DNA of 44,670 nucleotides, taken from IMG/VR virus record IMGVR_UViG_3300025065_000185, positions 1 to 44,670 of that record; one strand, given 5' to 3'. Of the stretch, positions 21,653 to 42,120 are shown piece after piece; position 1 is the stretch's first letter; each line of letters begins with the position of its first letter. The stretch comes from a virus. The translations under genes were made by a program, and so were the position numbers. Below the pieces are notes generated by a model, which was not told the origin of the DNA, searched no databases, and saw nothing but the letters and a program-made list of their open reading frames with translations.

Positions 21653-22005
21653 TATTCACAGTTGGAAGAACATGCAGAAGCTTTGCAAACCCACGCGGTT
21701 CCAGCTTGATCAACATAACAACACGAATCACCAGCATTATTATTTCTTCTCATGGTGATACACGAACCCGTGCCCTGTCCCGTTAGCCTAAGTGCCCCAC
21801 TAAAAGCAGTTGTGCCACTCGCAGTAATGACTCCTTTTTGTTTGTCGTTGTAATCGTCCCATCTTTGGATTTCATCTCCAGATTGTCCTGCCTTTACAAC
21901 TAAAGTAATCCCCGCGGAAAGTGTGATAAGTGCCGCAGCAGCGATAGAAGCTGCTCGCCATATTCCTTGCGGCTCGAAGATGTTACCTCGTACATTGAGT
22001 GCCAT
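21652..22005 (-). CDS. Membrane-anchored Cys-rich small protein (117 aa)
   Basis: One hydrophobic helix (about 17-38) followed by a soluble domain with six Cys in the last about 35 residues (positions near 81, 94, 95, 106, 111, 115), consistent with disulfides outside the cytoplasm. It resembles the other two signal-anchored proteins in this late operon. Unrecognised. Confidence 0.5.
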   Translation of the reverse strand: MALNVRGNIFEPQGIWRAASIAAAALITLSAGITLVVKAGQSGDEIQRWDDYNDKQKGVITASGTTAFSGALRLTGQGTGSCITMRRNNNAGDSCCYVDQAGTAWVCKASACSSNCE

Positions 22006-22228
22006 GATTAGTATTGGTTAAGGAATCAAGTTCTGCCGAAAGGACAGATATTTTGCTTTCAAGTTCTCGCAGTTTTGCCACGAGATTGGTGATCGAGTTT
22101 CGATCTTTGTTTCCTTCTGCTGTTCTTAGGCTGATTTTGCATTCATAGTGGTCTTTTTCGGCCAGTTTTATGCGCTGCTGCAAGTGATTCTTCTGCTCAT
22201 CGATGGAAAGGTATTTATAATCATTCAT
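21983..22228 (-). CDS. Coiled-coil protein (81 aa)
   Basis: Start at ATG 22228 overlaps the previous stop (TATGAATGA). Nearly all coiled coil, ending in a Ser/Thr/Asn tail, and overlaps the following gene. Possibly an accessory head or tail component. Confidence 0.5.
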   Translation of the reverse strand: MNDYKYLSIDEQKNHLQQRIKLAEKDHYECKISLRTAEGNKDRNSITNLVAKLRELESKISVLSAELDSLTNTNHGTQCTR

Positions 22229-22997
22229 ACTTAAAGAAAGTAATCGGGTAGGCCTCTTTTTTGTCGAAGGCTGCGAATAATAGATATACACCACCTTTAC
22301 TTTGAATGCTCACGGTTCCCTCGTATCCAGCCTTGTCCTTAACACCTATGTCAACGTTCGGAACTGTGTCTAATACAACATAAAACTTATCACTCTTTGC
22401 GAACTCCTTACCCTTTCGGGGTTGTTTTACGTCATCCTTATCAATAACGACTAACTCAACGTGTCTGTTGTCCACTTTGCTCAAGGTTTTCTCCAACTTC
22501 TTAATCTCTGCCTTCAGCTCCTTAATCTCTTTGGAGTAATCGGGGATTTCAATAGCATCAACCTCTGCCCCAAGCTCGTTCAATTCTCTTTCTATTCCTG
22601 CGTGTGAGTGATCTCTGAGAGCAAGGTGTTTTGTGAGTAATCTCTTAATCTCTGGACTGTGCTCAAGACGAGCAAGCGGTAGCTTTCCATCTAAGTCTTT
22701 AAGAGAATGTTTGTGGCTCTTCTTAGCATAGTCTGTAGGTACTTCAACTTTAGGAATTCTTCCGTCTATAAACTCATCCAACCCCTTAATATCAGCAATA
22801 GAAACGACTTTTCCTTTCTTCTCAAACTCATCAAAATCGGGGAGCTTTGGAAGTGGGGGGATTTCTGGCATGGGCGGTTCCCAATCCTTCAGCACCGCAT
22901 TCACTATCTTTACAACATCGGAATAGGTGCGAATGTCCTTTTTGGCTAATGTAAGCGTTCTACGGGTGGCCTTTGGTGGGATGATGTCAATGTTCAT
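22221..22997 (-). CDS. Structural protein with central coiled coil (258 aa)
   Basis: An N-terminal segment, a Pro/Asp-rich linker (PPMPEIPPLPKLPDFDEF near 44-60), a long coiled coil (about 130-190) and a small C-terminal beta domain. The layout suggests a trimeric fibre or spike. Begins on an ATGA overlap. Confidence 0.5.
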   Translation of the reverse strand: MNIDIIPPKATRRTLTLAKKDIRTYSDVVKIVNAVLKDWEPPMPEIPPLPKLPDFDEFEKKGKVVSIADIKGLDEFIDGRIPKVEVPTDYAKKSHKHSLKDLDGKLPLARLEHSPEIKRLLTKHLALRDHSHAGIERELNELGAEVDAIEIPDYSKEIKELKAEIKKLEKTLSKVDNRHVELVVIDKDDVKQPRKGKEFAKSDKFYVVLDTVPNVDIGVKDKAGYEGTVSIQSKGGVYLLFAAFDKKEAYPITFFKYE

Positions 22998-23392
22998 GAT
23001 GAGCGGGAGCGTAAAGTGGCTGTGTATTCCCCATATGCACCTGGGGTATTAGTCTCAAGAGCGCGGAGCCTTAAATGAGTTCCTGTAGCTTCAAACACAA
23101 TAGGAACCAAGTCTTGATCGGCAGTTCCTGCTGAAGTGTCTGATATTGTATATGCCTGCTCGCTTAATGTGCCTGACGAGTTTGTGTACTGCCCATATAC
23201 ATGCCAAGTTGTTCCACCATCGTGACTAACATCTATCTGCACGTTTATAGCATTAGTAGAATTAGTATCTGGGGCATACGTTATGAATAACGTGTGATGG
23301 CTTGCACCATGTATAGGAGCACTTATTGTGCTAGCGACATAACTAGCTGTAAGAGTTACGTTGTTGGAGAGGATAGCGGCTGTTCCTGACAT
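22994..23392 (-). CDS. Beta-rich hypothetical structural protein (132 aa)
   Basis: Compact beta protein (HHTLFITYAPDTNSTNAINV, DVSHDGGTTWHVYGQY) resembling small Ig-like or jelly-roll decoration domains of phage heads or fibres. Leader is AATTCTTTCCCCTATAAATC. No exact family recognised. Confidence 0.5.
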   Translation of the reverse strand: MSGTAAILSNNVTLTASYVASTISAPIHGASHHTLFITYAPDTNSTNAINVQIDVSHDGGTTWHVYGQYTNSSGTLSEQAYTISDTSAGTADQDLVPIVFEATGTHLRLRALETNTPGAYGEYTATLRSRSS

Positions 23393-23410
23393 GATTTATA
23401 GGGGAAAGAA

Positions 23411-23812
23411 TTAGGATTTCTTGGGTCTGCCACGTTTTTTGGTCTTCTTTTTGGCCTTCTCTTTTGCTTTCTCGATCTCTTTCTTAGCTTCTTCTTCTGT
23501 TTTTGGCTTCACCCTGCGAGTTTCTGGATCGGAGGTTCTCTTCATTGCCTCCTCAGTCGGCTCTTCACCGCCTCTTTTTACTGCTTTTGGCTCAGTTTCC
23601 TCTCTTTCCTCTTTCTTTTTCAGCTGAACTTTCCATATACGCTCATAAACTTCAACATAATGATCATATTGTTCTGTTCCCTCAAATGAGCGAAGGAATT
23701 GCTTTATAATCGCAAGCTGCTCTGGGATATTGGGATTTAGCCTCCCTTTCTGGAAGATGGGTAGATACCTTGGGCCGTTGCCCGTTGCGAATGGATTGAT
23801 AGTGTCTGGCAT
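23411..23812 (-). CDS. Basic-tailed hypothetical protein (133 aa)
   Basis: ATG 23812 is preferred to ATG 23851 because the leader TTCATTCCCTACCCTAATC precedes it. The N-terminal half may be a small domain (GNGPRYLPIFQKGR). From about residue 65 the chain is a Lys/Glu/Arg repeat and ends in an AT-hook-like KRGRPKK. Probably binds DNA or packs with it. Confidence 0.55.
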   Translation of the reverse strand: MPDTINPFATGNGPRYLPIFQKGRLNPNIPEQLAIIKQFLRSFEGTEQYDHYVEVYERIWKVQLKKKEEREETEPKAVKRGGEEPTEEAMKRTSDPETRRVKPKTEEEAKKEIEKAKEKAKKKTKKRGRPKKS

Positions 23813-23833
23813 GATTAGGGTAGGGAATGAAAT

Positions 23834-23875
23834 GCGGGGGGTCCCGCTCATCTTTCCGCTCCTAAAAGCGGAAAG
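23834..23875 (-). promoter_or_regulatory. Paired hairpins between capsid-region genes
   Basis: On the minus strand CTTTCCGCT and AGCGGAAAG (23852-23875) form a perfect 9-bp stem, followed by a GCGGG/CCCGC stem (23834-23847). They precede the gene starting at 23812 and follow the 179-aa protein. There is no U-tract, so RNA processing or attenuation is more likely than clean termination. Confidence 0.45.
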
Positions 23876-23883
23876 TCAGAGGG

Positions 23884-24423
23884 CTAGTTCTTGTAAACAT
23901 CACGAATAACTGCCTTAATTCTTGCGTCAACAGTCCCTGGGTCAGCAGTTGTAGCGCAGTTTATGATTGTGCTGTTCCTGATGAGAATACTCCCAGAGAG
24001 ATTATGTAGGACTGATCCAGTCGCGAATGTTCTGTTTTGGAATCCAGGTACCGCTGTTGTTCCAGTGGCTGAGGTAGTAATACCCGCCGCCAAACCATAA
24101 GAACAGTCCATAGTCGTAGCTGTTCCTACACCTGTAGCCTCAATGAACAAGTCCATAAGAAGTCCTGAGCCAGAACGCGGGTTCGTGAAAGAGCACGTTC
24201 TGTGATTCGATGAAGCTCCTGTTGAAGTGCATGTTTCAACAACCATAGTCGACATACTTTCTGTATCTACAATGATTGAAGGTGAATCAGTACGACCAGT
24301 TGTATCGTAGATGATATCCCCTCTCGTGAAGAAGGAATTTGAGACCGCAGCCGTTACAGTTGCGGTTGCAATTACTCCTAGCGCCGCTGCCGTGAATGTC
24401 GTGATTCTCGTATAATTAGCCAT
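23884..24423 (-). CDS. Secreted-looking protein after the capsid gene (179 aa)
   Basis: N-terminal hydrophobic Ala-rich segment (about 9-29) like a signal peptide or anchor; mature part is beta-rich, Thr/Gly/Ser-rich, with Cys near 65, 74, 105 and 156. Immediately follows the capsid gene with a C-rich leader (CCTAACCCTTAACCGCTA). Possibly a minor head or spike protein, or exported to the envelope. Unrecognised. Confidence 0.5.
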   Translation of the reverse strand: MANYTRITTFTAAALGVIATATVTAAVSNSFFTRGDIIYDTTGRTDSPSIIVDTESMSTMVVETCTSTGASSNHRTCSFTNPRSGSGLLMDLFIEATGVGTATTMDCSYGLAAGITTSATGTTAVPGFQNRTFATGSVLHNLSGSILIRNSTIINCATTADPGTVDARIKAVIRDVYKN

Positions 24424-24436
24424 TAGCGGTTAAGGG

Positions 24437-25444
24437 TTAGGAAGTAGGTGCGGTTGTCGAGAGCGAGAATACAAATCCCTGCCATCGAACTGCTGCGAAT
24501 GCAGCGAATTGGGTTACAAGAATAGAAGCGAGTATGTTGTCCTCGTTTATAAACTTCTGCTCGGTTGTTGGTGATTCAGCCATTTGGAGCTGGAGAGCAC
24601 CGCGAGCCATCTCTGAGTCCATAATCACCCATCTGTAACGGTTTGCAGAAGCTACTGTTCCGACCATGTTCTTCTGACCATGTTTGAGAACAACGAGCTT
24701 CATTGCTCCGTTGTAGACGTTGACTGCATTGTTTGAATTTTCTGGGATCAACGAAGAGCCAAGCATCTCACGCGCTTTGCGTTCCATGTTGGCATCTTGG
24801 GCGATTACAAGAGTATTAAAGTTCGGGGACAGGTAAGTTCCCTGATCGTCAACTGTGTTCTGCTCGCCTGTGGCCATAGCAGAAGTCATGTTGTCCATCG
24901 AAAGGGCTCCTGCCCCCGATAGCACATTGCTGAACGTAGAACCTGCTGCGCCATTAACTGTGTGGCTAGCTGATGCAAAGGCCAACGTGTCGGCAGTTGC
25001 TATGCTCACAGCAGCTTTTCCAGGAGGTGTCATTGTAGTCTGATCAGCCTCACCGAAGCATTGCTGTGTCAACTCTAGGTCAAGTACGTTCTTGAGACGA
25101 TTTGCGAGTGCAGGTGCATCAAACTTAGCAACCGCGTAACGGTTGTTGAATTTGGCCATCCTGCGAGTGATGGTGAGTTTGTCACCGTATTGAATCTGAG
25201 TTTTATCGAGTTCATCCCCAAGCGTGGGGTCAATCATTGGGTAGTTCTCGTTTTCATCAACGCGACCAGCGAATCCTGAGAGAGCCACAGAGTTAAAAGT
25301 AACTCTATCTGGGTCTCCAGGCGACCAGGGCACAGGCATGTAGAGGCCTCTAACCATGTCTGGTTTTGCCTCTTTGACTTGCGCCATGACCGACCGCTCA
25401 GTGTTGTCAACGAACTCCGAGAATGCTGTTGAATTATAAGCCAT
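24437..25444 (-). CDS. Major capsid protein
   Basis: 335 aa, Ala/Met/Asn-rich, with an N-arm, a long alternating helix-strand core, and short C-terminal beta strands. It follows scaffold and decoration genes in the standard head order. HK97-fold assignment is by length, composition and order; I see no single diagnostic motif. Leader is CTAATTTCAACCCTCCAAT. Confidence 0.75.
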   Translation of the reverse strand: MAYNSTAFSEFVDNTERSVMAQVKEAKPDMVRGLYMPVPWSPGDPDRVTFNSVALSGFAGRVDENENYPMIDPTLGDELDKTQIQYGDKLTITRRMAKFNNRYAVAKFDAPALANRLKNVLDLELTQQCFGEADQTTMTPPGKAAVSIATADTLAFASASHTVNGAAGSTFSNVLSGAGALSMDNMTSAMATGEQNTVDDQGTYLSPNFNTLVIAQDANMERKAREMLGSSLIPENSNNAVNVYNGAMKLVVLKHGQKNMVGTVASANRYRWVIMDSEMARGALQLQMAESPTTEQKFINEDNILASILVTQFAAFAAVRWQGFVFSLSTTAPTS

Positions 25445-25475
25445 ATTGGAGGGTTGAAATTAGGAAATAAAAAAA

Positions 25476-25883
25476 CTAAGCGGCAATCGTAGTAGATGCT
25501 GGCTTCATGTATTGCCCGTAACAACGGGATGTGGTTACGCCGTCCCATGATGTGATGAGGACGTCGTTGTTTGACTCTGTGAGAGTTAGACCGCTTGCTG
25601 GCGTTCCGTGAATATCTGCCTCTTCACCGACTTCGGCTGCTGCCATGGTGCCGGTTCCGATGGTAAATTCCCAGATGTCACCAGGTAGAGCGATATCAAC
25701 AAGACAGTTCGTAGATGATGTTGCTGCGTTCACAGCTACACCCAAAATCGCCTTGCCTGTTGCGCCCACGGCTACCTCCCCATTTTCGTCAAACTGCACT
25801 GGATCACCAGCTGCAATCGTCCCAGACGATGCGTATTCTCTATAATTGCTGTGTCCAGTCATGCGTCTTATTACTGCAGGCAT
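25476..25883 (-). CDS. Capsid decoration/cement protein (DUF2190-like)
   Basis: 135 aa of small beta structure. Carries AAGDPVQFDENGEVAVGATGKA, a segment (split here by a turn) typical of DUF2190-type capsid cement proteins that stabilise the shell. Sits between scaffold and capsid genes. Leader is TTCTTACCCCCCACAGAAC. Confidence 0.6.
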   Translation of the reverse strand: MPAVIRRMTGHSNYREYASSGTIAAGDPVQFDENGEVAVGATGKAILGVAVNAATSSTNCLVDIALPGDIWEFTIGTGTMAAAEVGEEADIHGTPASGLTLTESNNDVLITSWDGVTTSRCYGQYMKPASTTIAA

Positions 25884-25906
25884 GTTCTGTGGGGGGTAAG
25901 AAATAC

Positions 25907-26518
25907 TTACGCCCCTTGTTGTCTTTCAGCTTTCAGCTTCTTGTGCTCTTTGAGGATTTCTTCGTCATACCCCCAAAATTCCATATCAGCACGCTCTTTT
26001 TCGGTAACATCAGAAGCTGGTTCGCGATTGACAGATGCCGCAGGCTGTCCTGCGGATATCTGGCGCAAATGCTCGGAAATGTTTGACTCGGTAATGCCCT
26101 TATCATCGAGAGCGAGACGCAATGCGAGTTCTGGCTTAACGCCGTCACTGGTATATTTGTCATACTCTTCCTGACAGAGATCGATCTTATCCTGATTCTT
26201 GATTTCCCATTTAAGTAGAGACTTTTCGTCTTCGGTGAAGCCTTTTGCTTCTTCGACTTTTTCCTCTTGCTTTTTAGGTTCATCATCAACAATAGCAGAT
26301 TTAAGACGTTTGACCTCTTTGGCTTTATCCTGCAAACCGCGATGCAGCTCGGCTGATCGCTCTTTTTCTTGGTTAAGGGCTTCTTCCAATTCTTGAACCT
26401 TGGATGACTGTGAATCTTCCGAAGATTCTTCAGTGTCTTTGGCTTTAGAAGTTTCCTGATTGCCTTCGGCGTCAGGAGGGGAAACGCTGCCGTCCTTTAC
26501 AGGATCGTCAGTAGTCAT
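25907..26518 (-). CDS. Scaffolding protein
   Basis: 203 aa, highly charged (Glu, Lys, Asp, Ser, Gln), with an unstructured acidic N-terminus and a coiled coil (about 35-95). It ends in a basic C-terminal helix (LKEHKKLKAERQQ), the usual capsid-binding end of scaffolds. Order is portal, two small genes, scaffold, decoration, capsid. Leader is TTCTAACCAGCTTTTACT. Confidence 0.75.
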   Translation of the reverse strand: MTTDDPVKDGSVSPPDAEGNQETSKAKDTEESSEDSQSSKVQELEEALNQEKERSAELHRGLQDKAKEVKRLKSAIVDDEPKKQEEKVEEAKGFTEDEKSLLKWEIKNQDKIDLCQEEYDKYTSDGVKPELALRLALDDKGITESNISEHLRQISAGQPAASVNREPASDVTEKERADMEFWGYDEEILKEHKKLKAERQQGA

Positions 26519-26547
26519 AGTAAAAGCTGGTTAGAAAACAAATCGAG

Positions 26548-26645
26548 CACGGAGGCTCAGGTTTACTCTCCGAGAGAACAAACCTTAACCTCCATGCGTT
26601 TGCGCCGTTGATGACAAGGAGCTATTAAAAGTTTGTACTCCTTGT
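26548..26645 (-). promoter_or_regulatory. Two long hairpins upstream of the scaffold gene
   Basis: The gap between 26518 and 26668 holds a long imperfect hairpin at 26548-26596 (CAYGGAGG with CCTCCRTG, AGGTTT with AAACCT, plus a CTCTC/GAGAG top) and a perfect 8-bp stem ACAAGGAG/CTCCTTGT with a 16-nt loop (26614-26645). They lie in the RNA upstream of the head genes. Possible attenuator, processing site or protein-binding site. Confidence 0.5.
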
Positions 26646-26667
26646 TCTGTAAATAGAACCACGTTCG

Positions 26668-26862
26668 TTACACATACGGCCACTCTCGAAATGTTGCTAT
26701 TTCGTCAATATCGATAAATATATTTTGCCTATTCTTAACCTTAAAGTAATAATCTTCTTTGAACCGTCTTCCCTTTCTTAGCTTCATTTCATCGAATGAG
26801 CACTGTATGCAGCCAGGGACATGTCCACCTTTCGTTGATATTTCTAAGTATTCTTCTTTCAT
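26668..26862 (-). CDS. Small protein with private leaderless promoter (64 aa)
   Basis: ATG 26862 is the supported start because TATAAT ends 6 nt upstream; the frame extends further but without support. Beta-rich, with a Cys pair-like G-C-I-Q-C near 15-20. Lies in the late operon but has its own promoter, so it may be made early. Confidence 0.5.
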   Translation of the reverse strand: MKEEYLEISTKGGHVPGCIQCSFDEMKLRKGRRFKEDYYFKVKNRQNIFIDIDEIATFREWPYV

Positions 26863-26874
26863 AAATCCATTATA
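26863..26874 (-). promoter_or_regulatory. Leaderless promoter (TATAAT-N6-ATG)
   Basis: Minus-strand TATAAT occupies 26869-26874, followed by GGATTT and the ATG at 26862. It lies inside the 3' end of the upstream gene. Confidence 0.6.
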
Positions 26875-27070
26875 CACTTATTCCTTTCTCTGCAATCCGA
26901 TAAATAACCATCCGTATTGCCTTCTCATCTCTTCCAAGCGCAGCAGCAGCAATCTTAATCTTCTCAAAATGCCTTACACAAGCCAAAACTTCGCGTTGCC
27001 AGGGTGTGAGCTTGTCCCACTCAGTGAGCTTTATTTTTTCTTTGCCTATTATATTTAACACAATACTCAT
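26870..27070 (-). CDS. Helix-turn-helix-like protein (66 aa)
   Basis: Residues 20-62 look like a sigma-region-4/LuxR-type HTH (TPWQREVLACVRHF, then IAAAALGRDEKAIRMVIYRIAEKG). Begins on an ATGA overlap with the previous gene. Could regulate late genes or bind a pac site; an inference from fold pattern. Confidence 0.55.
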   Translation of the reverse strand: MSIVLNIIGKEKIKLTEWDKLTPWQREVLACVRHFEKIKIAAAALGRDEKAIRMVIYRIAEKGISV

Positions 27071-27372
27071 AGTAGTTTAGTCAAGCCGAGTTTTTTATCA
27101 GTAGAAAGGAGATTATTTTTCGATAGCGTGTCTTTTCTCCACTCGCCCTTTAACTGATTGGCAGCCTTGCGGACGTTCTCGTCATCAATAGTGAAGCGCT
27201 TGCAATCAAACCAGCTTAGGATTGTTTCTCTCTGCTTACTGGAGAGGCGTTGCAAAACGCTGTTCTGTGTTTGAGACAGACGGAGCCTCTCTAGTGGCAA
27301 GGCTTTCCGGTGTAGCAGGATTGGGAGCAGTACCAGCAGGACTAGATTCAAGAGGAGACTGAAGTAGAGCAT
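27067..27372 (-). CDS. Small membrane-anchored protein overlapping the portal gene (101 aa)
   Basis: Read in a different frame, its first about 45 codons overlap the portal 3' end by 137 nt. An ideal hydrophobic helix (residues 3-20, LLLNLVLLVLLPILL) starts right after ATG 27372, which is preceded by TTTATTCCCCACAATCCAAA, the same C-rich leader type, here inside portal coding sequence. The C-terminal part is basic and helical. A later start (for example TTG near 27250) would lose the membrane segment. Confidence 0.45.
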   Translation of the reverse strand: MLYFSLLLNLVLLVLLPILLHRKALPLERLRLSQTQNSVLQRLSSKQRETILSWFDCKRFTIDDENVRKAANQLKGEWRKDTLSKNNLLSTDKKLGLTKLL

Positions 27373-29362
27373 TTTGGATTGTGGGGAATAAAGATTCTTC
27401 CGCCTCTTCGATATCTTTACGCAAATCCATAGCTACTCCACCTTCGTCCTTCATAACATCCTCTTCTGGTAGATCAACAACTCTTGTATATTCCTTTTCT
27501 AGTTTCTGTAGATCGAACTGTGTTCCTTCTGGGTCTTCCATTGCTCGTGTTCTTGCTAATTCCATAAGCGCATTTACTTTAGCGAATTTCAGGTCTTTAT
27601 CATCAGCCAACATCCTCATTCCTTTAGCGTATACATCTGGTATTCCGCCTCTTTCTATGTATTCTTGGCTCCATAGATACTCAGGAGCAGCGGGGATGAA
27701 GCTGTCTGTTAGTCCTTTGAGTTTCTTATTTTCGATAAGAGTATTGTCCGTTGAATTGATATCGAACTTGCGCTTCTTATTTGTTGTAGAGTCGAACTTC
27801 TCCGAGAAGGCACGATCTTTTACACGGATCATAGTTCTAACCTTCTTCCTTCCAATCTTCCCGTTCACTAGTTCAAAATCTTCACCTGTTATCTCGCCTG
27901 CTTTTATCTTCTTTGCATACTTCTCTACCTCCTTCTCGGTAATATCCTCATAGTCCTCAACAGTAAGCTCAGACATCGCACCCGATAGAGTCAGTTGGCC
28001 TAGCTTACGGAAGCAGCCATTCTCTAGCACCTTCAGCTTGCTTTCAAACCTTCTATTTTGTGCTCTTATTCTTTGTGAGAGTTCAAACGCCGTTCTTGCT
28101 GTCTCTCCCTGTAGTTGTTTGAAGTTGACACCAGTCAAATAAATACACCAGTTGTCTAGCATCTCCATCATTACCTGATATTCGCCTGTTCTTGGCTGCC
28201 CAAAGGGATGAACCCCTATCTCTCCGTCAATAAAGTCACCTGAGTAGAAGTCTCTCGCGTCTAAATCTATCTGTGACGTCCCATCAAATGGCCTGTAACT
28301 AATTCCTACTGTGTTTGACAGTCTTACGTTATCAACCTGCATATTTGTAAGTGCCTGATACAGAGCATCAAACCCTCTCATTGTGAACGGTAATCCCATT
28401 GGGTACAAAGCTGTTGTTCTTAGGTTGTCATCGTACTGCATTTCGTTGGGGCCGAAACAGAAGGAGTGAACTCCTAGTGCGTTCATACCCGCTGTCCTTC
28501 TACCATCAGCCATTTCTTTCATTTGTAGCATTCCGTTCATTATTGGTACACCGTTTGCATAAACTCTTACGGAGTCGTTTTCCTCATCCTGTATCTTCCC
28601 TACTACGATCTTGTCCTTCTTTTCAATCTCTCGGTACATAAGCTCGTCTTGGTCTCCGAAGCCCATTGAAAGTCCAGGCTTTACATGTTCTGTGTTCTCG
28701 TATCTTGGTTTGGTTGTGCCATCTGCATTAAATACTACTGCGTGAGTGTATCTACGCTTGAATTCTAGCTCTGTTAGGTACTCCTCATCATAAACCTTCC
28801 TAACTTCCTGTAAGTTTGGTGATGATGGGTCTAACCACACTTCAAATGGGTTTCTGTGTCGTACCTCAATCTTCTCCCTTCGATAATCTCTTTTAACAAT
28901 AGGCTCCATCTTCCCCCCTTTTGTGGGCATTTGCACTGTTCTTACAGGATATTGATTAACAACCTCGTAAGTTCCCATATTCAGGTAGGTAAAGTCTGTT
29001 AGGAACTGGTGTTGTTTGGAGTCAAAGTTAGACATATCTAGGATATGGTCTATTGCACTACCCCAGAACACTGTTTTCTTGTAATCAGAAGCCGCTCCAG
29101 GCCTAAATCCAAATTCAGGCCTGCCTTCGTTTAGTGCTGCAATACTAGCTTCGCCAATCATCCTTGCAATTCCTATAAAAATGTTGGATGTATCACTTCT
29201 TGGTGTGGGATCAGCGATCATATTCGCAGCTTTAGCACCCATTTCCATTTGATCCTCAAAAGGCTGTCTGTATGTCTTAAAATGCTCAACCATCTCTTGA
29301 TCCTCCCGCATCAGTGTCTGCTGCTGAGGAGAAAGAATAATGGTTGGTTTATCAAGGGGCAT
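27236..29362 (-). CDS. Portal protein
   Basis: 708 aa, the usual size of a P22-like portal. Helical N-terminal region, a beta/mixed wing (about 150-330), a stem/clip region with TALYPMGLPFTMRGFDALYQAL (split by short loops), and a long acidic C-terminal tail (about 560-690). It follows TerL and accessory genes and precedes the head genes. Forms the dodecameric DNA channel. Starts inside the end of the zinc-ribbon gene. Confidence 0.75.
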   Translation of the reverse strand: MPLDKPTIILSPQQQTLMREDQEMVEHFKTYRQPFEDQMEMGAKAANMIADPTPRSDTSNIFIGIARMIGEASIAALNEGRPEFGFRPGAASDYKKTVFWGSAIDHILDMSNFDSKQHQFLTDFTYLNMGTYEVVNQYPVRTVQMPTKGGKMEPIVKRDYRREKIEVRHRNPFEVWLDPSSPNLQEVRKVYDEEYLTELEFKRRYTHAVVFNADGTTKPRYENTEHVKPGLSMGFGDQDELMYREIEKKDKIVVGKIQDEENDSVRVYANGVPIMNGMLQMKEMADGRRTAGMNALGVHSFCFGPNEMQYDDNLRTTALYPMGLPFTMRGFDALYQALTNMQVDNVRLSNTVGISYRPFDGTSQIDLDARDFYSGDFIDGEIGVHPFGQPRTGEYQVMMEMLDNWCIYLTGVNFKQLQGETARTAFELSQRIRAQNRRFESKLKVLENGCFRKLGQLTLSGAMSELTVEDYEDITEKEVEKYAKKIKAGEITGEDFELVNGKIGRKKVRTMIRVKDRAFSEKFDSTTNKKRKFDINSTDNTLIENKKLKGLTDSFIPAAPEYLWSQEYIERGGIPDVYAKGMRMLADDKDLKFAKVNALMELARTRAMEDPEGTQFDLQKLEKEYTRVVDLPEEDVMKDEGGVAMDLRKDIEEAEESLFPTIQNALLQSPLESSPAGTAPNPATPESLATREAPSVSNTEQRFATPLQ

Positions 29363-29765
29363 GACGGTTTCCTATTTTACACCTACTTACAAGAGACTTC
29401 AAATGGTTAAACAGTGCAACACGAAATGAGACTTTACCACCGCTCTTTGGATTCTCCTTCCTCGACCACGCATCCCTATCCTCCCGCCTCTTAATCTCCT
29501 CTTTCTCACACCATTTGTCATATTCTACTTGGTGTTCTAGTGGAGCAGTTACAGGAGGAGCATTGTATGTCTTCTCGTAATCCCAATCGTTCCATGATTT
29601 TGTGAAGCCCACTCCCAAGAAGCGTACAGGAGGCGAGTAAATCACTTTGTGCATTTCCCTTAACCACAGACAGAACGGACAGCGAAAGGATTCGGGGCTA
29701 CTTTCGAACTCTGCCTTAAGCTCTTTTTCGTAGCCGCATTTGCATCTGTAGGTGTAGATTGGCAT
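29352..29765 (-). CDS. FmdB-type zinc-ribbon protein (137 aa)
   Basis: Starts MPIYTYRCKCGYEKE and has a second pair CPFC at about 29-32, the FmdB/zinc_ribbon_8 pattern (MPxYxYxCxxCG). The rest is a Trp/Asp/Tyr-rich segment and a basic tail. Such proteins occur next to phage terminase and portal genes; role unknown. Overlaps both neighbours. Confidence 0.75.
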   Translation of the reverse strand: MPIYTYRCKCGYEKELKAEFESSPESFRCPFCLWLREMHKVIYSPPVRFLGVGFTKSWNDWDYEKTYNAPPVTAPLEHQVEYDKWCEKEEIKRREDRDAWSRKENPKSGGKVSFRVALFNHLKSLVSRCKIGNRHAP

Positions 29766-30211
29766 GTCCTACCCGTAATTAGTTTCAAAGGATTCTCGAA
29801 CCCATCATCCTCCAATTCCTTAATAAAGCCAAGCCTTTCAAATAACAGGCTTTTGTACCCCTTTGGCATAGGGCTATCGTCGTGCATTTCTTTCCACTCT
29901 CTTATCAGCGTAGCAGGATTCATCCTCTCCCATTCATCCCCCCATTGCTTAACGGTAATCCCAAATAATCTATGAGCGATGATCAGCCCCTTGTATCTCT
30001 CCCAGTCATCTACCTGCTCCTTCGCACATTCGATTCCCTTGTCTGTCATTAAAAAGTACGCCTCCTCTGCTGAGATTCTTTTGCCGTTGTATGGTTTTCC
30101 CCTCCTGGTTGATCTATAGAACCCTGCATCGTTACACTTCAGCCTCTTCTCTGGTAGTTGTGAGATAAAGTGCTCTAGCTTGGCCAGTGCTTTCTTATGC
30201 TTTCTCTTCAT
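29660..30211 (-). CDS. Hypothetical protein (183 aa)
   Basis: ATG 30211 overlaps the previous gene by 17 nt. Basic N-terminus (MKRKHKKALAKLEHF), then an alpha/beta body. Its last about 35 codons overlap the zinc-ribbon gene in another frame. No family recognised. Confidence 0.55.
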   Translation of the reverse strand: MKRKHKKALAKLEHFISQLPEKRLKCNDAGFYRSTRRGKPYNGKRISAEEAYFLMTDKGIECAKEQVDDWERYKGLIIAHRLFGITVKQWGDEWERMNPATLIREWKEMHDDSPMPKGYKSLLFERLGFIKELEDDGFENPLKLITGRTCQSTPTDANAATKKSLRQSSKVAPNPFAVRSVCG

Positions 30212-30389
30212 CTTCAATAAGTTCTGCTCTCAATTCCTTGAGAACATCTTTCAAAACTTCTCCAGCATCAGCACCTTCGGCAACTCTTTGTACAGCGTCA
30301 GTAAGTATGCCAAGCCTTACCATTTGGCCATAAAGAGCGCCGTACTCATTATTTACAAGACGGAGAAGGGTTTGTAGATTGGAGTCCAT
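30195..30389 (-). CDS. Hypothetical helical protein (64 aa)
   Basis: All-helical, acidic C-terminus. Leader is CTTCCCCCTAATTCCT, formed by the end of the upstream gene. Unrecognised. Confidence 0.55.
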   Translation of the reverse strand: MDSNLQTLLRLVNNEYGALYGQMVRLGILTDAVQRVAEGADAGEVLKDVLKELRAELIEDEEKA

Positions 30390-30394
30390 AGGAA

Positions 30395-30634
30395 TTAGGG
30401 GGAAGGAGAATATTCTTCAATATAATTTATTCTATCGGGGCGAAGATAAAGGGTTTTTCCATTTTTACCTGTGAATTTAACAAACCTTTCCTTTGATTTG
30501 ATCTTCTTTAGCACTTCTTCATGGCTTTCGCGGACATCTGCAACTTGTACGTATGATGACTTGTTCTCTCTAAAGTAAATCTGTGTTTTGAGAAATTCTT
30601 CATATGGCCGCTCCTCTGGCTTTCTTCCGAACAT
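30395..30634 (-). CDS. Hypothetical protein (79 aa)
   Basis: Basic N-terminus and a short beta domain (KFTGKNGKTLYLRPDRINYIEEY). Possibly a small DNA-binding or head protein. Preceded by TATAAG close to the ATG but no clear promoter. Confidence 0.5.
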   Translation of the reverse strand: MFGRKPEERPYEEFLKTQIYFRENKSSYVQVADVRESHEEVLKKIKSKERFVKFTGKNGKTLYLRPDRINYIEEYSPSP

Positions 30635-30654
30635 ACGCTTATAGCCTACACCTC

Positions 30655-31038
30655 TTATTCTCTAGTTCTATTGACAGAATATTTATTCTCTTGCGAGATC
30701 AAATAGAAGCCATCACCCTTCTCAAATATAACCTTCTTAGGCTTGTCAATCTCCTCTTGTGTGATCTTCATGTTCTCACCGATTTTCTCAGCAAGTATGT
30801 GTGCCAGCTCTTCCCAATCCCAATCCATATACTCACATATTAGCTCTCTTAGTCTCTCAAAGGAATGGTGAAGATTCGTCTTACATAAGCTAAAATCTTT
30901 TCTTACCTCATTAGTATCATAAAACTTCTGCCCTTCTAACTTCTCTATTCTGGACAAAAGAGACTCAAGACAAGTATTAAGATCACAAGAGACATAGAAT
31001 ATGTAGTTGCTCAATCTTGTTGCCTCTCTTACATCCAT
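30655..31038 (-). CDS. Hypothetical helical protein (127 aa)
   Basis: Helical, with three Cys in the first half (near 15, 18 and 51) and a long charged C-terminus. Lies between terminase and portal genes. No family recognised. Confidence 0.5.
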   Translation of the reverse strand: MDVREATRLSNYIFYVSCDLNTCLESLLSRIEKLEGQKFYDTNEVRKDFSLCKTNLHHSFERLRELICEYMDWDWEELAHILAEKIGENMKITQEEIDKPKKVIFEKGDGFYLISQENKYSVNRTRE

Positions 31039-31042
31039 ATCC

Positions 31043-31258
31043 CTATCTTAACCTACTTCTAACAGACAACAAGACCGAATCCACATATGGCAATACCACC
31101 CTATACAGATTCTTAGAATAGTCAGCCACTGGAACAAACCTATCACCATCACGAGCTACATACGTACGCTCATTCCTAATCTCAATCTCACGCAGCCCAC
31201 ATGCCTTACACTTTCTCCTGCCACGTAAGAAAGGCGGAAAGTCATGGTTGCATGACAT
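31043..31258 (-). CDS. Small zinc-knuckle protein (71 aa)
   Basis: ATG 31258 is used; it follows the terminase stop by 7 nt. C3-x-H5, then C18-x2-C21 inside a basic segment (RGRRKCKACGLRE), matching a one-zinc knuckle. The remainder is beta-like and basic. May act with the terminase. Confidence 0.5.
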   Translation of the reverse strand: MSCNHDFPPFLRGRRKCKACGLREIEIRNERTYVARDGDRFVPVADYSKNLYRVVLPYVDSVLLSVRSRLR

Positions 31259-31265
31259 ACCCCCA

Positions 31266-32678
31266 TCATAGCCCCACCTGCTTCTGCCATCCAGTACTTG
31301 CACGGCGCTTCTTTTTCTTTTGTGACGGCTTCTCTGTAAGCAAAGGATAAAAGGTCATACACGCTGCATCCGCGATATCTGGCGAAGCTAACCCTCTCCT
31401 CTTCATATCCTCCTTTCTCTCCATTACAAGCTTTCCATTTGAATCAAAGCTGTAATAAATACCAATCGTATCTTCTCTAAATTCTTCTGTAAGCGACCCC
31501 TCATTCAACCATTGTTTATATCTCTTCCACAGTTCTGCTCTCATATTCTTACAATCTTCCATTCTTGGTTTTTCAGAGACATTTACTCCTATTACATCAA
31601 TCTTTTGCTCTTTCAGTCTATCCAGCACGCCTGCCCCAATACCAATTACATCGACGCAAACAAATGTATAGGGCTCACCTTCATAATCTGCTTGTTCTAT
31701 TGCATTTATAACTTGGCCAACTATCTGCATTGTATCTTGCCCCCTAAGCATTTTAATCAATCTCATTTCTTTACCCTTCCGCTCAACTAACACCGATCTA
31801 TCATTCCCAAACCTTGCAACGTCAACTCCTAATGTTTTAGGTTCATGTGGAAATGTTTGTACTTTGTTGTATAAAGCCTTTTCATATAACTCAGCAGAAA
31901 TGAATTGCTGCTCCTCCTGCTGTGGTGGCAATCCCAATACACGAACTCTATAAGGATCAGATGTCCTACCGTATTCACGCTCAATCTCAGTTATGTAACT
32001 TCTATCAACTCTTGGGACATCCAAGCAAGAAACAGTGAACGTATGCCATTTTCCTGAGTCTTTGCTGTCACCCTCTTGCCATTTATTAAGCCCAAAGCAC
32101 TCGTGGAACTTTCCAGTGTTCCGCGTCGGGTTTCCAAGTACTAACCATCTAGCACCTTTAGTAGTCATTGCCCCCGCCGATGTTTCCCAAATGATTTCAG
32201 GGATAGCAGAGGCTTCATCGAATACCATCAAGACATTCTCTTCGTGTGTTCCTGCAAACGCTTCAGGCTTCTCTTCTCTGTGTGGAACAGCAGAAGCAAA
32301 CCAAGTATCTGATCCTTTCATTGAGAACCTTGTAGCTGTTATTTCAAAAGCATCCTTGTTTACAGCGTTCTCATTTATCTTTGCGAGCTCTCTCCATGAT
32401 TTGTCTTTAAGTTGGGATTGTGTGTTAGCAGTGACCACGATTTGGGGATTTGCCCTTGTGGCAATGAACCAATGAATGACACTGGCCGCCAATCTTGTTT
32501 TTCCAACTCCATGCCCAGAGCGGATAGCAACTCGTCTATGTTGTTTGATGCTATCCAAAACCTTTTCTTGCCATTCGTCAGGAGTAAAGCGGAGGACAGC
32601 TCTACAATATCTTGCAGGATCATCTCTGAATTCTTTTGCGATAAAGGCCGAGACTTCTGCGACATCTGCTGGGTTCAC
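31266..32678 (-). CDS. terL: Terminase large subunit
   Basis: 470 aa. ATPase domain with Walker A GHGVGKT at 55-61 and Walker B VLMVFDEA at 149-156, then a coupling motif GNPTRNTGKF (182-191). C-terminal RNase H-like nuclease with GVDVARFGND (284-293, catalytic Asp286), a second acid in VCVDVIGIGAG (near 343) and SPDIADAACM near the end. It cuts and pumps DNA into the prohead through the portal. GTG start overlaps the TerS stop (GTGA). Confidence 0.9.
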   Translation of the reverse strand: MNPADVAEVSAFIAKEFRDDPARYCRAVLRFTPDEWQEKVLDSIKQHRRVAIRSGHGVGKTRLAASVIHWFIATRANPQIVVTANTQSQLKDKSWRELAKINENAVNKDAFEITATRFSMKGSDTWFASAVPHREEKPEAFAGTHEENVLMVFDEASAIPEIIWETSAGAMTTKGARWLVLGNPTRNTGKFHECFGLNKWQEGDSKDSGKWHTFTVSCLDVPRVDRSYITEIEREYGRTSDPYRVRVLGLPPQQEEQQFISAELYEKALYNKVQTFPHEPKTLGVDVARFGNDRSVLVERKGKEMRLIKMLRGQDTMQIVGQVINAIEQADYEGEPYTFVCVDVIGIGAGVLDRLKEQKIDVIGVNVSEKPRMEDCKNMRAELWKRYKQWLNEGSLTEEFREDTIGIYYSFDSNGKLVMERKEDMKRRGLASPDIADAACMTFYPLLTEKPSQKKKKRRASTGWQKQVGL

Positions 32679-33028
32679 TTGGTAGATTGTAGCTCCTCTT
32701 TAACCTTGTCCGCCACCGACACTGTGGCATTTATATTCTGATCTGGTTTTCCTTCCATCCTATCAGCAACCTTCTCAAACGCTTTAACATCTCCATCTTC
32801 CATCCTATTCCATATAGCATCAGCAGCTAACTCTTTTCTTGTCAGTTGATCTTTTTTCTGATCTGCAATCTTTACAAACAAGTCTCGCCAAGTCCAAGCA
32901 GAGTCAGGTCTTCCTTCTGGATTAGGACTCTTGCCCCCCTTCTCCCAAGCAGGATTACCTGCTAAGAGGTTTTTGTGTTTCGATTGTTTCTTTACTTTCT
33001 TTTCCTTTGTTGTCTCGTTCTTTTTCAT
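32675..33028 (-). CDS. Putative terminase small subunit / DUF5681-like protein
   Basis: 117 aa. Basic N-terminus, then GNPAWEKGGKSPNPEGRP (residues about 24-41), the hallmark of DUF5681-type proteins found next to TerL, then WRDLFVKIAD helices and ADRMEGKP near 91-98. Directly upstream of terL with a GTGA overlap, so a DNA-recognition role in packaging is likely. Starts leaderless. Confidence 0.65.
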   Translation of the reverse strand: MKKNETTKEKKVKKQSKHKNLLAGNPAWEKGGKSPNPEGRPDSAWTWRDLFVKIADQKKDQLTRKELAADAIWNRMEDGDVKAFEKVADRMEGKPDQNINATVSVADKVKEELQSTK

Positions 33029-33110
33029 GATTAGATTGTATCACATTTTCTGGGTCAATGATATTCCCAAATCCTCTTCTGTTGCCTAATTTGACTTGTA
33101 GCTTTTTCAT
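32955..33110 (-). CDS. Small basic protein overlapping the terminase small subunit (51 aa)
   Basis: Begins at an ATGA overlap with the previous gene's stop and runs 51 codons (MKKLQVKLGNRRGFGNI start), Lys/Glu-rich at the end. The last 74 nt overlap the TerS-like gene in another frame. The exact stop/start coupling supports it; the overlap weakens it. Confidence 0.35.
   Translation of the reverse strand: MKKLQVKLGNRRGFGNIIDPENVIQSNHEKERDNKGKESKETIETQKPLSR
33029..33040 (-). promoter_or_regulatory. Leaderless promoter before the terminase genes
   Basis: Minus-strand TACAAT at 33035-33040 preceded by TGA (extended -10), then CTAATC and ATG 33028. It lies inside the overlapping 51-codon frame. 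Confidence 0.6.
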
Positions 33111-33531: not shown

Positions 33532-33710
33532 GTGACTATTGTATTCCATATCTTCTTAACATGGAAGATGCTGGCATATGTTAGTAACGGCCAGCAGTAC
33601 CAAGGCAATCTCTTCCAATGGTCTAATATCCAATAGTATGGAGCCTTATGCAAAGTTCTGAGACTCGATCCTCTGCACATATGCATGTAGGGTAAGTCTC
33701 TTATCCTCAT
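33528..33710 (-). CDS. Trp/His-rich small protein (60 aa)
   Basis: Starts on ATGA overlap; TACAAT also ends exactly 6 nt before it (33717-33722, preceded by TGC), so it may be coupled and also have its own promoter. Rich in Trp, Tyr, His and Arg with several Cys; could be membrane-peripheral. Composition is unusual, so coding is only moderately supported. Confidence 0.4.
   Translation of the reverse strand: MRIRDLPYMHMCRGSSLRTLHKAPYYWILDHWKRLPWYCWPLLTYASIFHVKKIWNTIVT
33532..33543 (-). promoter_or_regulatory. Leaderless promoter (TACAAT-N6-ATG)
   Basis: TACAAT at 33538-33543, then AGTCAC and ATG 33531, embedded in the end of the preceding gene. Confidence 0.6.
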
Positions 33711-33895
33711 GCTTTCATTGTAGCAGTAATAGCAGTGGTTCCGCTAATATTCCAGTCTGGGTCTCTGTGGAACTGGTACATGTGGTCTTCTAACATTTCA
33801 ACAGCAAGGGAGGGGGTAGCAGCTCCTACTGACCAATCACAATGTTCACAGTCAATAAAGTGTACTGTTGCCGTCCTTGTTTTGCGGATTCTCAT
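33707..33895 (-). CDS. Small zinc-knuckle protein (62 aa)
   Basis: C-x2-C (CEHC near 16-19) and two His downstream (near 38 and 43), a C2H2-like spacing; basic N-terminus. Coupled by ATGA to the 14-aa peptide before it. May be a DNA-binding regulator. Confidence 0.5.
   Translation of the reverse strand: MRIRKTRTATVHFIDCEHCDWSVGAATPSLAVEMLEDHMYQFHRDPDWNISGTTAITATMKA
33711..33722 (-). promoter_or_regulatory. Leaderless promoter (TACAAT-N6-ATG)
   Basis: TACAAT at 33717-33722 with extended TGC, then GAAAGC and ATG 33710, inside the last codons of the preceding gene. Confidence 0.5.
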
Positions 33896-33953: not shown

Positions 33954-34028
33954 TGGTGGACAACAGATGAATTGCACATCTTACCTCTCGGGTGTAGACC
34001 GAGCGCTCTGCTAATGAGCTAGTTGTCC
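33954..34028 (-). tRNA. Degenerate tRNA, anticodon TAC (Val) by standard numbering
   Basis: A full cloverleaf can be drawn: acceptor GGACAAC/GTTGTCC (7 bp) with discriminator A and encoded CCA, D stem GCTC/GAGC, anticodon stem CTCGG/CCGAG with loop TCTACAC, variable AGGTA, T stem AGATG/CATCT. Unusual: position 33 is C not U, the D loop (ATTAGCA) lacks the G18-G19 pair, and the T loop is TGCAATT with G at 55. All stems are perfect, so selection is on structure even though the elbow contacts are lost. Confidence 0.75.
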
Positions 34029-35275: not shown

Positions 35276-35434
35276 CTACTGCCCCATTTCAAGATATTGC
35301 TTTGGACAAAAAAACCTCTTCCCATCTTTTTCCATAAGCACCAAGTCCTTTGTGAATTCCTCTCCAAGCCTGTCCCAAAAAGCCACTGTGAGGATGAGCA
35401 CTAGGTCATTCCACATGTTACTTAGAGATTTCAT
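35276..35434 (-). CDS. Hypothetical small protein (52 aa)
   Basis: ATG 35434 lies 6 nt after TATACT (35441-35446, extended TGC). Helical N-terminus, one Cys, basic middle. Unrecognised. Confidence 0.55.
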   Translation of the reverse strand: MKSLSNMWNDLVLILTVAFWDRLGEEFTKDLVLMEKDGKRFFCPKQYLEMGQ

Positions 35435-35446
35435 GCAAAGAGTATA
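35435..35446 (-). promoter_or_regulatory. Leaderless promoter (TATACT-N6-ATG)
   Basis: Extended -10 TGC-TATACT, then CTTTGC and ATG 35434. A CTTGATTTATACAA element lies upstream, shared with the next promoter. Confidence 0.6.
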
Positions 35447-35467
35447 GCAGAACTCCCCTTGTATAAA

Positions 35468-35680
35468 TCAAGCCACAGCTTTCATTTTAGCTATTTTTCT
35501 ATATGGAAGATGTGCCACAGAATTTCCTGTTGGATCAGTAACAGGCATCCATTGCATCCCACATCCACCGCAAAATATATAATAATTCCTGCGAGACAAT
35601 CTTAAATCCGAATGGCAACAAGCGACATCAGGCTCATGCTCCTCGTAGAACTCTGCTTCTGGCACTGGTTTTGAGAACAT
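35468..35680 (-). CDS. Zinc-ribbon protein (70 aa)
   Basis: C-C near 21-22 with a nearby His, then C-G-G-C (CGGCGMQWM near 37-44), consistent with one zinc site like phage replication or transcription-factor ribbons. ATG 35680 is 6 nt after TATAAT. Confidence 0.55.
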   Translation of the reverse strand: MFSKPVPEAEFYEEHEPDVACCHSDLRLSRRNYYIFCGGCGMQWMPVTDPTGNSVAHLPYRKIAKMKAVA

Positions 35681-35692
35681 ATCTCAATTATA
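35681..35692 (-). promoter_or_regulatory. Leaderless promoter (TATAAT-N6-ATG)
   Basis: TATAAT at 35687-35692 (consensus), TGAGAT, ATG 35680. The element CTTGATTTATACAA lies just upstream. Confidence 0.65.
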
Positions 35693-35709
35693 CACCCCTA
35701 TTGTATAAA

Positions 35710-35910
35710 TCAAGGCAACTCAACACTTCTCACCTCGTAGTCAATATCCAAGTGCTCATGCCCTTGGAGAAAATCAGCATACATTTCAGCGTATTCCTTA
35801 TCATAGAAAAACGCCAGACAGCCAAACTCTTTATTCTTGTGTGTAATATCTTTATCCCAGAAGGCTATATCTTCCTCTTCGCCAGTAGGGGTAACGTAGT
35901 GGACTTTCAT
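35710..35910 (-). CDS. Hypothetical acidic protein (66 aa)
   Basis: ATG 35910 is used because TGG-TATGCT ends 6 nt upstream; the frame stays open further 5' without support. Beta-alpha pattern (MKVHYVTPTGEEEDI) and Tyr/Asp/Glu-rich. Unrecognised. Confidence 0.5.
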   Translation of the reverse strand: MKVHYVTPTGEEEDIAFWDKDITHKNKEFGCLAFFYDKEYAEMYADFLQGHEHLDIDYEVRSVELP

Positions 35911-35922
35911 ACCCCTAGCATA
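35911..35922 (-). promoter_or_regulatory. Leaderless promoter (TATGCT-N6-ATG)
   Basis: Extended -10 TGG-TATGCT (35917-35922), AGGGGT, ATG 35910; the third CTTGATTTAT element overlaps it. Confidence 0.5.
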
Positions 35923-35950
35923 CCATAAATCAAGGGAGGGTGTAGGGGGG

Positions 35951-39545: not shown

Positions 39546-39728
39546 ATGACTTGCCAATGCCCAAAAGTGACAGAGGAAATGCACAAGCATAATCAAAAAT
39601 GTCCTGATTGTGGCAAGCGATCTCTGTATTCTTATGAACAAGAATCAGCCGAAGACGCTTTCATGAGAATCATGGAGGAGATGGGAGTTTCGTTTGAAGA
39701 TTGTACTATTGAAGAAAGCGGGGACTAG
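39546..39728 (+). CDS. Zinc-binding small protein (60 aa)
   Basis: C3-x-C5, then H13 and H15, and C19-x2-C22 make a plausible zinc site; acidic C-terminus. Its stop is inside the first hairpin of the structured intergenic region. Confidence 0.5.
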   Translation: MTCQCPKVTEEMHKHNQKCPDCGKRSLYSYEQESAEDAFMRIMEEMGVSFEDCTIEESGD

Positions 39729-39847
39729 CTTTCGCTAGCCCCCTAGGCAGTGCCTAACGCTCTTTACGCAACTCTATAGCATAGGCTACTCCTTTTACAG
39801 GGGACGGTTAGTAAAGAACGTAAATGGGGAGTTGCGAACAACTCCCC
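39720..39847. other. Structured intergenic region between convergent genes
   Basis: GGGG-CTAGC-TTTC-GCTAG-CCCC (39720-39742) and a perfect 9-bp stem GGGGAGTTG-CGAA-CAACTCCCC (39826-39847) bracket further pairable segments (CTCTTTAC with GTAAAGA; GCAACTC with GAGTTGC). 39729-39912 holds no gene. It may be two terminators for the convergent units, or one folded RNA. Confidence 0.5.
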
Positions 39848-39912
39848 GTGCCTCCCACAAGTTCCCAAAGGCGCAGTGATGCGTAGTTATTTTTGAAACT
39901 AGGAAGGCACAC

Positions 39913-40074
39913 TTATTTTAACACAGCGTCTTCAATTTTCTTCATACAGTCATCACAAAACACTTTCCAAATCTGGAACAATCCATTTAATGACTTCATT
40001 AAGATTGGCATGCCCGTGCCTCTGAACTCTTCGCCACAAGTTTCACACTCCATTTTTGTAATTTCTAAAAGCAT
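39913..40074 (-). CDS. Zinc-binding small protein (53 aa)
   Basis: CETC near 10-13 and CDDC near 40-43, a paired C-x2-C site, separated by a hydrophobic helix. ATG 40074 is 6 nt after TATGAT on the minus strand, in the bidirectional promoter. Confidence 0.55.
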   Translation of the reverse strand: MLLEITKMECETCGEEFRGTGMPILMKSLNGLFQIWKVFCDDCMKKIEDAVLK

Positions 40075-40088
40075 GCTATAATCATAGC
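40075..40088. promoter_or_regulatory. Bidirectional leaderless promoter
   Basis: The only 14 nt between divergent start codons, GCTATAATCATAGC, contain TATAAT (40077-40082, plus) and TATGAT (40081-40086, minus), each exactly 6 nt from its start codon. The TG of each extended -10 lies within the start codon of the opposite gene (CAT-G-C). Confidence 0.7.
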
Positions 40089-40358
40089 ATGAGATTACCT
40101 AGTGAAAGTTTATGGCAATTCGCTCATGGTAATGTTGAAATAACAGACGACCAACCAAACATAATAACTTCAATTCCTATCGACCCTCCTCCGAGAGATT
40201 GTTACAGAGAAGTCCGTGCAAGGGTTATGAAGGCTTTAGAGACGGGTTTGGCAGTAGATCGAGTAGAGGCTCAGAGCGCTATGGATATCGCCCTAAGATG
40301 TTCCCATATAAGCAAGATTCAATTCCAAAATCTTTCCCAACTTTTAAATGGAGCTTGA
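40089..40358 (+). CDS. Hypothetical protein (89 aa)
   Basis: Leaderless start. A short N-terminal region, then an Arg/Ala/Met-rich helical segment; no cysteine pairs. First gene of a three-gene plus-strand unit. Unrecognised. Confidence 0.5.
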   Translation: MRLPSESLWQFAHGNVEITDDQPNIITSIPIDPPPRDCYREVRARVMKALETGLAVDRVEAQSAMDIALRCSHISKIQFQNLSQLLNGA

Positions 40359-40530
40359 TTTCCAAGAAGAACACCGCGCCTTATCAGTACAAGCACTAAT
40401 ACAAAAAGGAGTGTTTCTGTCAAAGACTCCAGAACACGATGATATTTTAGAGCTAATAGACAGTTTCCGCTTTAGGAAAACAAAGGAGAAGCTCCGTAAA
40501 TTACTAGATGAACACACCCTCAATGAATGA
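40348..40530 (+). CDS. Hypothetical helical protein (60 aa)
   Basis: Overlaps the previous gene by 11 nt. Charged helices (FRFRKTKEKLRKLLDEH). Unrecognised. Confidence 0.5.
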   Translation: MELDFQEEHRALSVQALIQKGVFLSKTPEHDDILELIDSFRFRKTKEKLRKLLDEHTLNE

Positions 40531-40711
40531 AGAGCTAGAAGACTGGCAGATAGACCAACAAATTTACCGTGAGTTCTGGGGGGGCAAGATTTCACGGGAA
40601 GCTATTGAGATTGGCTGTATGAGAATACGAGAGCAGGCCAAAAATAGCGTTTATAGCTCCTTAGACGAAGAAAAAGAGGAAAAAAGTATCCCAGTACCAG
40701 AAACTACTTAA
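40508..40711 (+). CDS. Hypothetical acidic protein (67 aa)
   Basis: Overlaps the previous gene; a second Met (codon 6, at 40523) close to the ATGA-type junction may be the true start. Acidic, helical. Unrecognised. Confidence 0.5.
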   Translation: MNTPSMNEELEDWQIDQQIYREFWGGKISREAIEIGCMRIREQAKNSVYSSLDEEKEEKSIPVPETT

Positions 40712-41431: not shown

Positions 41432-41596
41432 GCACTGACCTCCCCACCGGCACATTAGAAAATACATCACCTAACAGCGCCTGTGTGCGGTTCGGCTCGG
41501 AGTCTCTTGATATTTTAAGGTCGCCTCCTCGCCTCACCCAAATGCTACGGCTGTGGATACATTATACAGCCTTGCACTTCGCACAAGGCGCAGACG

Positions 41597-41788
41597 TTAT
41601 AAGCACATCTCCGATTCTTCCTCGTCATCAAACTCATCAGACTCTTGCTGCATCCAAACACCGCCTCGGTATTCTTCTGCTTTCATGGAGATGTCTTGAA
41701 CTTTTCCTGTGTTATTACACAGCCAGCATTCTTCATGGGAATTTATTATTCCCTCACATCCGGGGCACAAAGAATACCTCTTTGCCAT
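41597..41788 (-). CDS. Zinc-ribbon protein (63 aa)
   Basis: CPGC at 8-11 and CWLC at 21-24 (DnaJ-type CxxCxGxG-like context) make a zinc ribbon; long acidic C-terminus (QESDEFDDEEESE). ATG 41788 lies in the second bidirectional leaderless promoter. Confidence 0.6.
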   Translation of the reverse strand: MAKRYSLCPGCEGIINSHEECWLCNNTGKVQDISMKAEEYRGGVWMQQESDEFDDEEESEMCL

Positions 41789-41802
41789 GCTACAATCATA
41801 TC
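41789..41802. promoter_or_regulatory. Bidirectional leaderless promoter, second copy
   Basis: The 14 nt GCTACAATCATATC between divergent starts carry TACAAT (41791-41796, plus) and TATGAT (41795-41800, minus), each 6 nt from its start codon (GTG 41803; ATG 41788). It matches the 40075-40088 element at 12 of 14 positions. Confidence 0.7.
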
Positions 41803-42120
41803 GTGAAGGAGGGTCTAATACAACGCGCAGTCTTGGATTACTTGGCAGCTAAAAAAATCTTTGCCTATCGTTCTCAATCAGTAGGTGTTTGGGACTCTAA
41901 GAAAGGAGTCTATAGAACAAGTGGTGTTAAAGGGGTTCCAGATATAACTTGTATAATTGATGGGAAGTACATAGGAATAGAAGTCAAGACTCCGCGAGGA
42001 AAGTTAAGTCCTGCCCAAGAAGAGTTCTCTGACAGGATTGTAGAAGCTGGGGGTATTTATTTAGTAGCACATTCGGTGGATGAGCTAGAGTCAGATTTAC
42101 AGGAGCTTGGTCTGATATAA
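41803..42120 (+). CDS. VRR-NUC-type endonuclease
   Basis: 105 aa, leaderless GTG start. LIQRAVLDYL, then GVKGVPDITCIIDGKYIGIEVKTPRGKLSPAQEEF carries the PD...(D/E)xK nuclease residues (Asp in PDIT, Glu and Lys in EVK) and the Q-x2-F helix of VRR-NUC (restriction-endonuclease-like) domains. Small stand-alone VRR-NUC proteins are common in phages and may act on replication or packaging intermediates. Confidence 0.75.
   Translation: MKEGLIQRAVLDYLAAKKIFAYRSQSVGVWDSKKGVYRTSGVKGVPDITCIIDGKYIGIEVKTPRGKLSPAQEEFSDRIVEAGGIYLVAHSVDELESDLQELGLI

Follow-up and report, generated by a model that had tools for sequence, protein, structure and literature searches.

Two divergent genes of an uncultured tailed phage are separated by only 14 nt (GCTATAATCATAGC; positions 40075-40088 of the window, i.e. 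the whole stretch of 44,670 nt analysed here). In the best-supported reading, which we consider very likely to be correct, these 14 nt form a bidirectional sigma70-type promoter from which both genes are translated without a leader.

Anatomy of the 14-nt junction

The minus-strand ATG at 40074 (read as CAT at 40072-40074) and the plus-strand ATG at 40089-40091 have nothing between them but GCTATAATCATAGC, and these 14 nt together with both ATGs make up the 20-mer CATGCTATAATCATAGCATG (40072-40091). TGC-TATRAT is present on each strand exactly 6 nt from the start codon of that strand, i.e. the plus strand carries an extended -10 with the hexamer TATAAT (40077-40082; TG at 40074-40075) and the minus strand an extended -10 with the hexamer TATGAT (40081-40086; TG at 40089-40088), and the two hexamers overlap by 2 bp (40081-40082). 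On both strands the first T of the hexamer is at -12 relative to the start codon, and neither gene is preceded by a Shine-Dalgarno (SD) motif; in bacteria, leaderless genes are marked by a TANNNT whose first T lies approximately 12 bp before the start codon (PMC3160421). A clear -35 element was found on neither side of this junction. The 20-bp block is a perfect dyad with 8-bp arms, CATGCTAT-AATC-ATAGCATG, the symmetry of which derives almost wholly from the two mirrored promoters and the two ATGs.

The sequence, coordinates and counts of the gap had been given exactly in the first-pass annotation of this DNA, and both extended -10s, with each hexamer 6 nt from its own start codon, were confirmed. 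The annotation also placed each TG within the opposing start codon; this is correct for the T (40074 and the complement of 40089) but not for the G (40075 and the complement of 40088), which is the first intergenic base.

The window contains two divergent pairs in which both -10s lie at 6 nt, and in both the gap is 14 nt. No pair of this kind exists in the window at any other gap between 6 and 40 nt, and none was found at any gap of 6-40 nt in 400 first-order Markov versions of the window (ORFs of at least 50 aa). The junction is a real and non-random feature.

Genes flanking the junction

The minus-strand gene (39913-40074) is predicted to be leaderless and to encode a zinc-ribbon-like protein of 53 aa with two Cys-x2-Cys pairs, for which only weak, sub-threshold zinc-ribbon matches were obtained. 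The plus-strand gene (40089-40358), also predicted to be leaderless, encodes a protein of 89 aa and is the first in a run of three small genes that overlap one another, the others encoding proteins of 60 aa (40348-40530) and 67 aa (40508-40711). No relatives of the 53-aa and 89-aa proteins were found in IMG/VR and phages, and the junction itself is seen in one genome only; a near-identical contig ends before it. The codon scores of the two flanking genes, at 0.096 and 0.092 nats per codon, are positive though modest, and both exceed that of the plus-strand ORF at 39893-40081 (0.012 nats per codon), which overlaps the minus-strand gene. Just before this convergent 53-aa gene, in window coordinates, a hairpin (GGGGACTAGC..GCTAGCCCC; 39720-39745) follows a run of plus-strand genes and is a possible terminator.

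Both 40074 and 40089 are the earliest possible start codons of their frames. Leaderless translation had been held to be required on both sides; this does not strictly follow, as the 53-aa gene may start at Met8 (40053) and would then have a 21-nt leader without an SD motif. In the 89-aa gene, no alternative start is visible by eye in the first 18 codons.

Leaderless signature across the phage

In the window there are 10 cases of a hexamer with at most one mismatch to TATAAT lying 6 nt before the ATG of an ORF of at least 50 aa, and 0-2 cases for any other spacing between 2 and 15 nt, whereas the Markov simulation averaged 0.4 at 6 nt and never exceeded 3; thus, this spacing is enriched more than 10-fold. 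The near-identical contig has seven hexamers at 6 nt. SD-like tetramers precede only 4 of the 44 ORFs of at least 100 aa in the window, which is about background, as opposed to 41 of 71 and 45 of 72 in two comparison phages (G006 and G007). One-sided leaderless promoters are predicted on the minus strand before the ATGs at 35680 (TATAAT, 35687-35692), 35434 (extended -10 TGC-TATACT, 35441-35446) and 33028 (TACAAT, 33035-33040), with a further candidate before the ATG at 33710 (extended -10 TGC-TACAAT, 33717-33722). The spacing peak together with the background-level SD motifs argues that leaderless initiation is a general habit of the phage rather than special pleading for one site and, judging from these sequence patterns, it is apparently the norm for many first genes. 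Moreover, the near-absence of SD motifs suggests that translation initiation in the host is unusual. The consecutive leaderless genes starting at 35434, 35680 and 35910 have a repeated element, TTGATTTATACAA/TTGATTTAT (35434-35930), upstream of them.

Searches with the terminase, capsid and portal proteins returned the one near-identical contig and distant terminase relatives, which mostly do not have the leaderless profile; in an attempt at host assignment, these terminase relatives were scattered over many phyla. About ten structural and packaging genes (14804-33028) have homologues with 29-39% identity in the distant, syntenic phage MW202647 from Manatee Spring, which is annotated as a podovirus and has this structural module in common with the window phage. 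MW202647 lacks the 6-nt leaderless peak, and its annotated 14-nt divergent pair (42653/42668) was rejected as an instance of the same layout because it has no -10 hexamers. The window also encodes a phage tRNA-Val (anticodon tac; 33954-34028, minus strand).

A second 14-nt junction in the same phage

The second divergent pair lies 1.7 kb from the first, with a minus-strand start at 41788 and a plus-strand start at 41803, and the 14 nt between them (GCTACAATCATATC, 41789-41802) are predicted to be a second bidirectional promoter, with the plus -10 TACAAT and the minus -10 TATGAT both at 6 nt. The minus-strand gene (41597-41788) encodes a 63-aa protein with Cys-x2-Cys pairs and the plus-strand gene (41803-42120) a 105-aa VRR-NUC nuclease (PF08774, E 8.5e-7) with a GTG start; both are predicted to be leaderless. 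Phage homologues of the nuclease align from residue 1, and its codon score is +16.6 from 41803 as against -2.7 from the upstream start at 41485. The likeness between the two junctions is confined to a 21-bp block (18 of 21 positions identical) while flanks and proteins are unrelated and, since similarity stops at the block, we rejected the possibility that the sites are repeat copies. Both -10s are retained at the second site, whereas three of the eight dyad pairs are broken (by TACAAT, the N of TGN and the GTG start).

Occurrence in other viruses

The strict dyad CATGNTATNATNATANCATG occurs at 73 loci in IMG/VR, whereas a control dyad of matched composition occurs at 17. One gene family, encoding DexA/Rv2179c-like exonucleases, turns up repeatedly at these loci, several members with the identical 20-mer: CATGCTATAATCATAGCATG stands directly before such a gene in ten contigs (L054, L057, L060, L061, L066, L069, L080, L089, L093 and L099), and in nearly all of them there is no divergent gene on the opposite side. 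This recurrence, along with the perfect 8-bp arms, is what would be expected if the dyad were mainly an operator for a repressor of one promoter or of both, its symmetry suited to a dimeric protein. We consider this improbable because the second site loses three of the eight dyad pairs at positions where a promoter tolerates change and keeps both -10s, because the window has no second perfect dyad, and because mirrored promoters and two ATGs explain nearly all of the symmetry. A bidirectional promoter is therefore favoured over an operator, the second site having preserved the promoter elements and not the dyad.

The same loci bear on whether only one direction is a true promoter, the other -10 being a by-product of the symmetry of the -10 sequence and its gene either expressed from elsewhere or not a gene at all. 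With a threshold of 35 aa, 50 of the 73 other strict dyads in IMG/VR have an ORF on one side only and not one has ORFs on both; moreover, the 53-aa minus-strand ORF is short and its codon score modest. However, this ORF has zinc-ribbon-like cysteines and outscores the ORF opposite it in codon use, and ORFs are found on both sides, 6 nt from the -10, at the two window junctions as well as in the phage contigs L219 and L269. A one-directional promoter is in our view about as improbable as an operator.

A looser pattern matched at least 80 loci in IMG/VR and, among the matches listed, nine pass a permissive test for ORFs on both sides. The pair L219/L269 makes a convincing independent case and the sole one among the matches listed. 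In these two contigs, a GT8 glycosyltransferase gene (PF01501, 8.9e-27) and a gene for a 195-aa protein diverge across exactly 14 nt (TATAATTATA), with TATAAT at 6 nt on both strands, and both contigs have the 6-nt leaderless peak; the proteins are 88% and 77% identical between the contigs and the 20-bp junctions differ at one position. Exact gap, hexamer spacing and leaderless profile are thus as in the window phage. By contrast, L219 and L269 have unrelated genes, a GC content of 31-32% and SD motifs that they use, and their hexamers lack the extended -10 TG of the first window junction. Because the genes are unrelated and the phage is AT-rich, we regard the layout in L219/L269 as an independent occurrence. 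A scan of 200 further genomes, from the phylum to which a Chloroflexi MAG belongs, gave three looser matches, none with convincing genes on both sides. Another viral contig, L278 (9448 bases), has 13 leaderless-type promoters (e.g. at 460, 995, 1353, 5453, 7187, 7611 and 7882), most of which share TTGA...TTTCCCC..TAAA..C..TATACTaatagtATGAAAAA, a motif that continues into the start codon.

That the 6-nt spacing is due to chance, with both genes led by distant promoters, would fit the absence of -35 elements, but it is extremely improbable given that no comparable pair arose in 400 simulated windows, that one phage has two instances and that the spacing is so strongly enriched.

Geometry and proposed mechanism

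The claim of a bidirectional leaderless promoter thus stands as the best-supported reading, on the strength of the spacing peak, the lack of SD motifs, the second junction and the GT8 junction, although the site is not unique. The usual distance from a -10 to the start of transcription is 7 bp, and from the hexamer positions the two starts are predicted to fall on the two ATGs, 15 bp apart. We infer that the 14 bp act as one pseudo-symmetrical, extended -10 promoter of the sigma70 type, to which host RNA polymerase would bind either way. In one orientation it would produce the plus RNA from approximately 40089, and in the opposite orientation the minus RNA from approximately 40074; by steric exclusion, only a single polymerase at a time could occupy the 14 bp. 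Each RNA would start on its AUG or no more than 1-2 nt from it and would be translated leaderless.

At a gap of 14 nt, consensus hexamers overlap without conflict as TATA[AT]TATA and the T of each TG comes from the opposing ATG. The gap had been proposed to be close to the minimum for two divergent genes; it is near the minimum but is not a strict one, as by geometry gaps of 12 nt (abutting hexamers) and 11 nt (a hexamer T in common with the other ATG) would also be workable. Because a second junction lies 1.7 kb away and an unrelated pair of phage contigs has the same arrangement, we regard the 14-nt layout as a recurring compact design and not a coincidence. A bolder proposal, that phages have evolved dual leaderless junctions of 14 nt repeatedly and under selection, as a module making two genes mutually exclusive through RNA polymerase orientation, with neither a regulator nor an untranslated leader, is tentative and in our estimate rather unlikely.

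If the bidirectional leaderless promoter is confirmed, 14 bp serve two divergent genes with a leader on neither side, start codons can furnish part of the opposing promoter, and the layout recurs in unrelated phages. The junction would then also be a very compact natural system in which to study how polymerase selects its orientation at a symmetrical promoter and how phage genes are translated without a leader.

Comparison with known systems

Bacterial bidirectional promoters, as described by Warman, Grainger and colleagues, are symmetrical sequences with pairs of divergent transcription start sites 7-25 bp apart (PMC10268837; PMC12825309), at which polymerases are unable to hold both orientations simultaneously (PMC12825309). 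The junction has in common with them overlapping symmetrical -10s on opposite strands, divergent genes and a predicted start separation within this range. It differs in that the 15 bp predicted from the 2-bp hexamer overlap is not among the commonest separations (18 bp, and also 10 and 23 bp; PMC12825309), which are a reported preference and not part of the definition of a bidirectional promoter. It also differs in that both predicted starts fall on start codons and in that it belongs to a phage and not to a plasmid or chromosome. With TA-led leaderless genes (Zheng et al. 2011, PMC3160421) and mycobacterial leaderless transcripts (PMC4633059) it shares TANNNT with the first T at -12 nt and the lack of an SD motif; unlike in those systems, two such genes lie back to back on one promoter. 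We found no description of a dual leaderless junction in the literature searched. Altogether, the junction joins two known phenomena, the bidirectional promoter and the leaderless gene, in a new combination.
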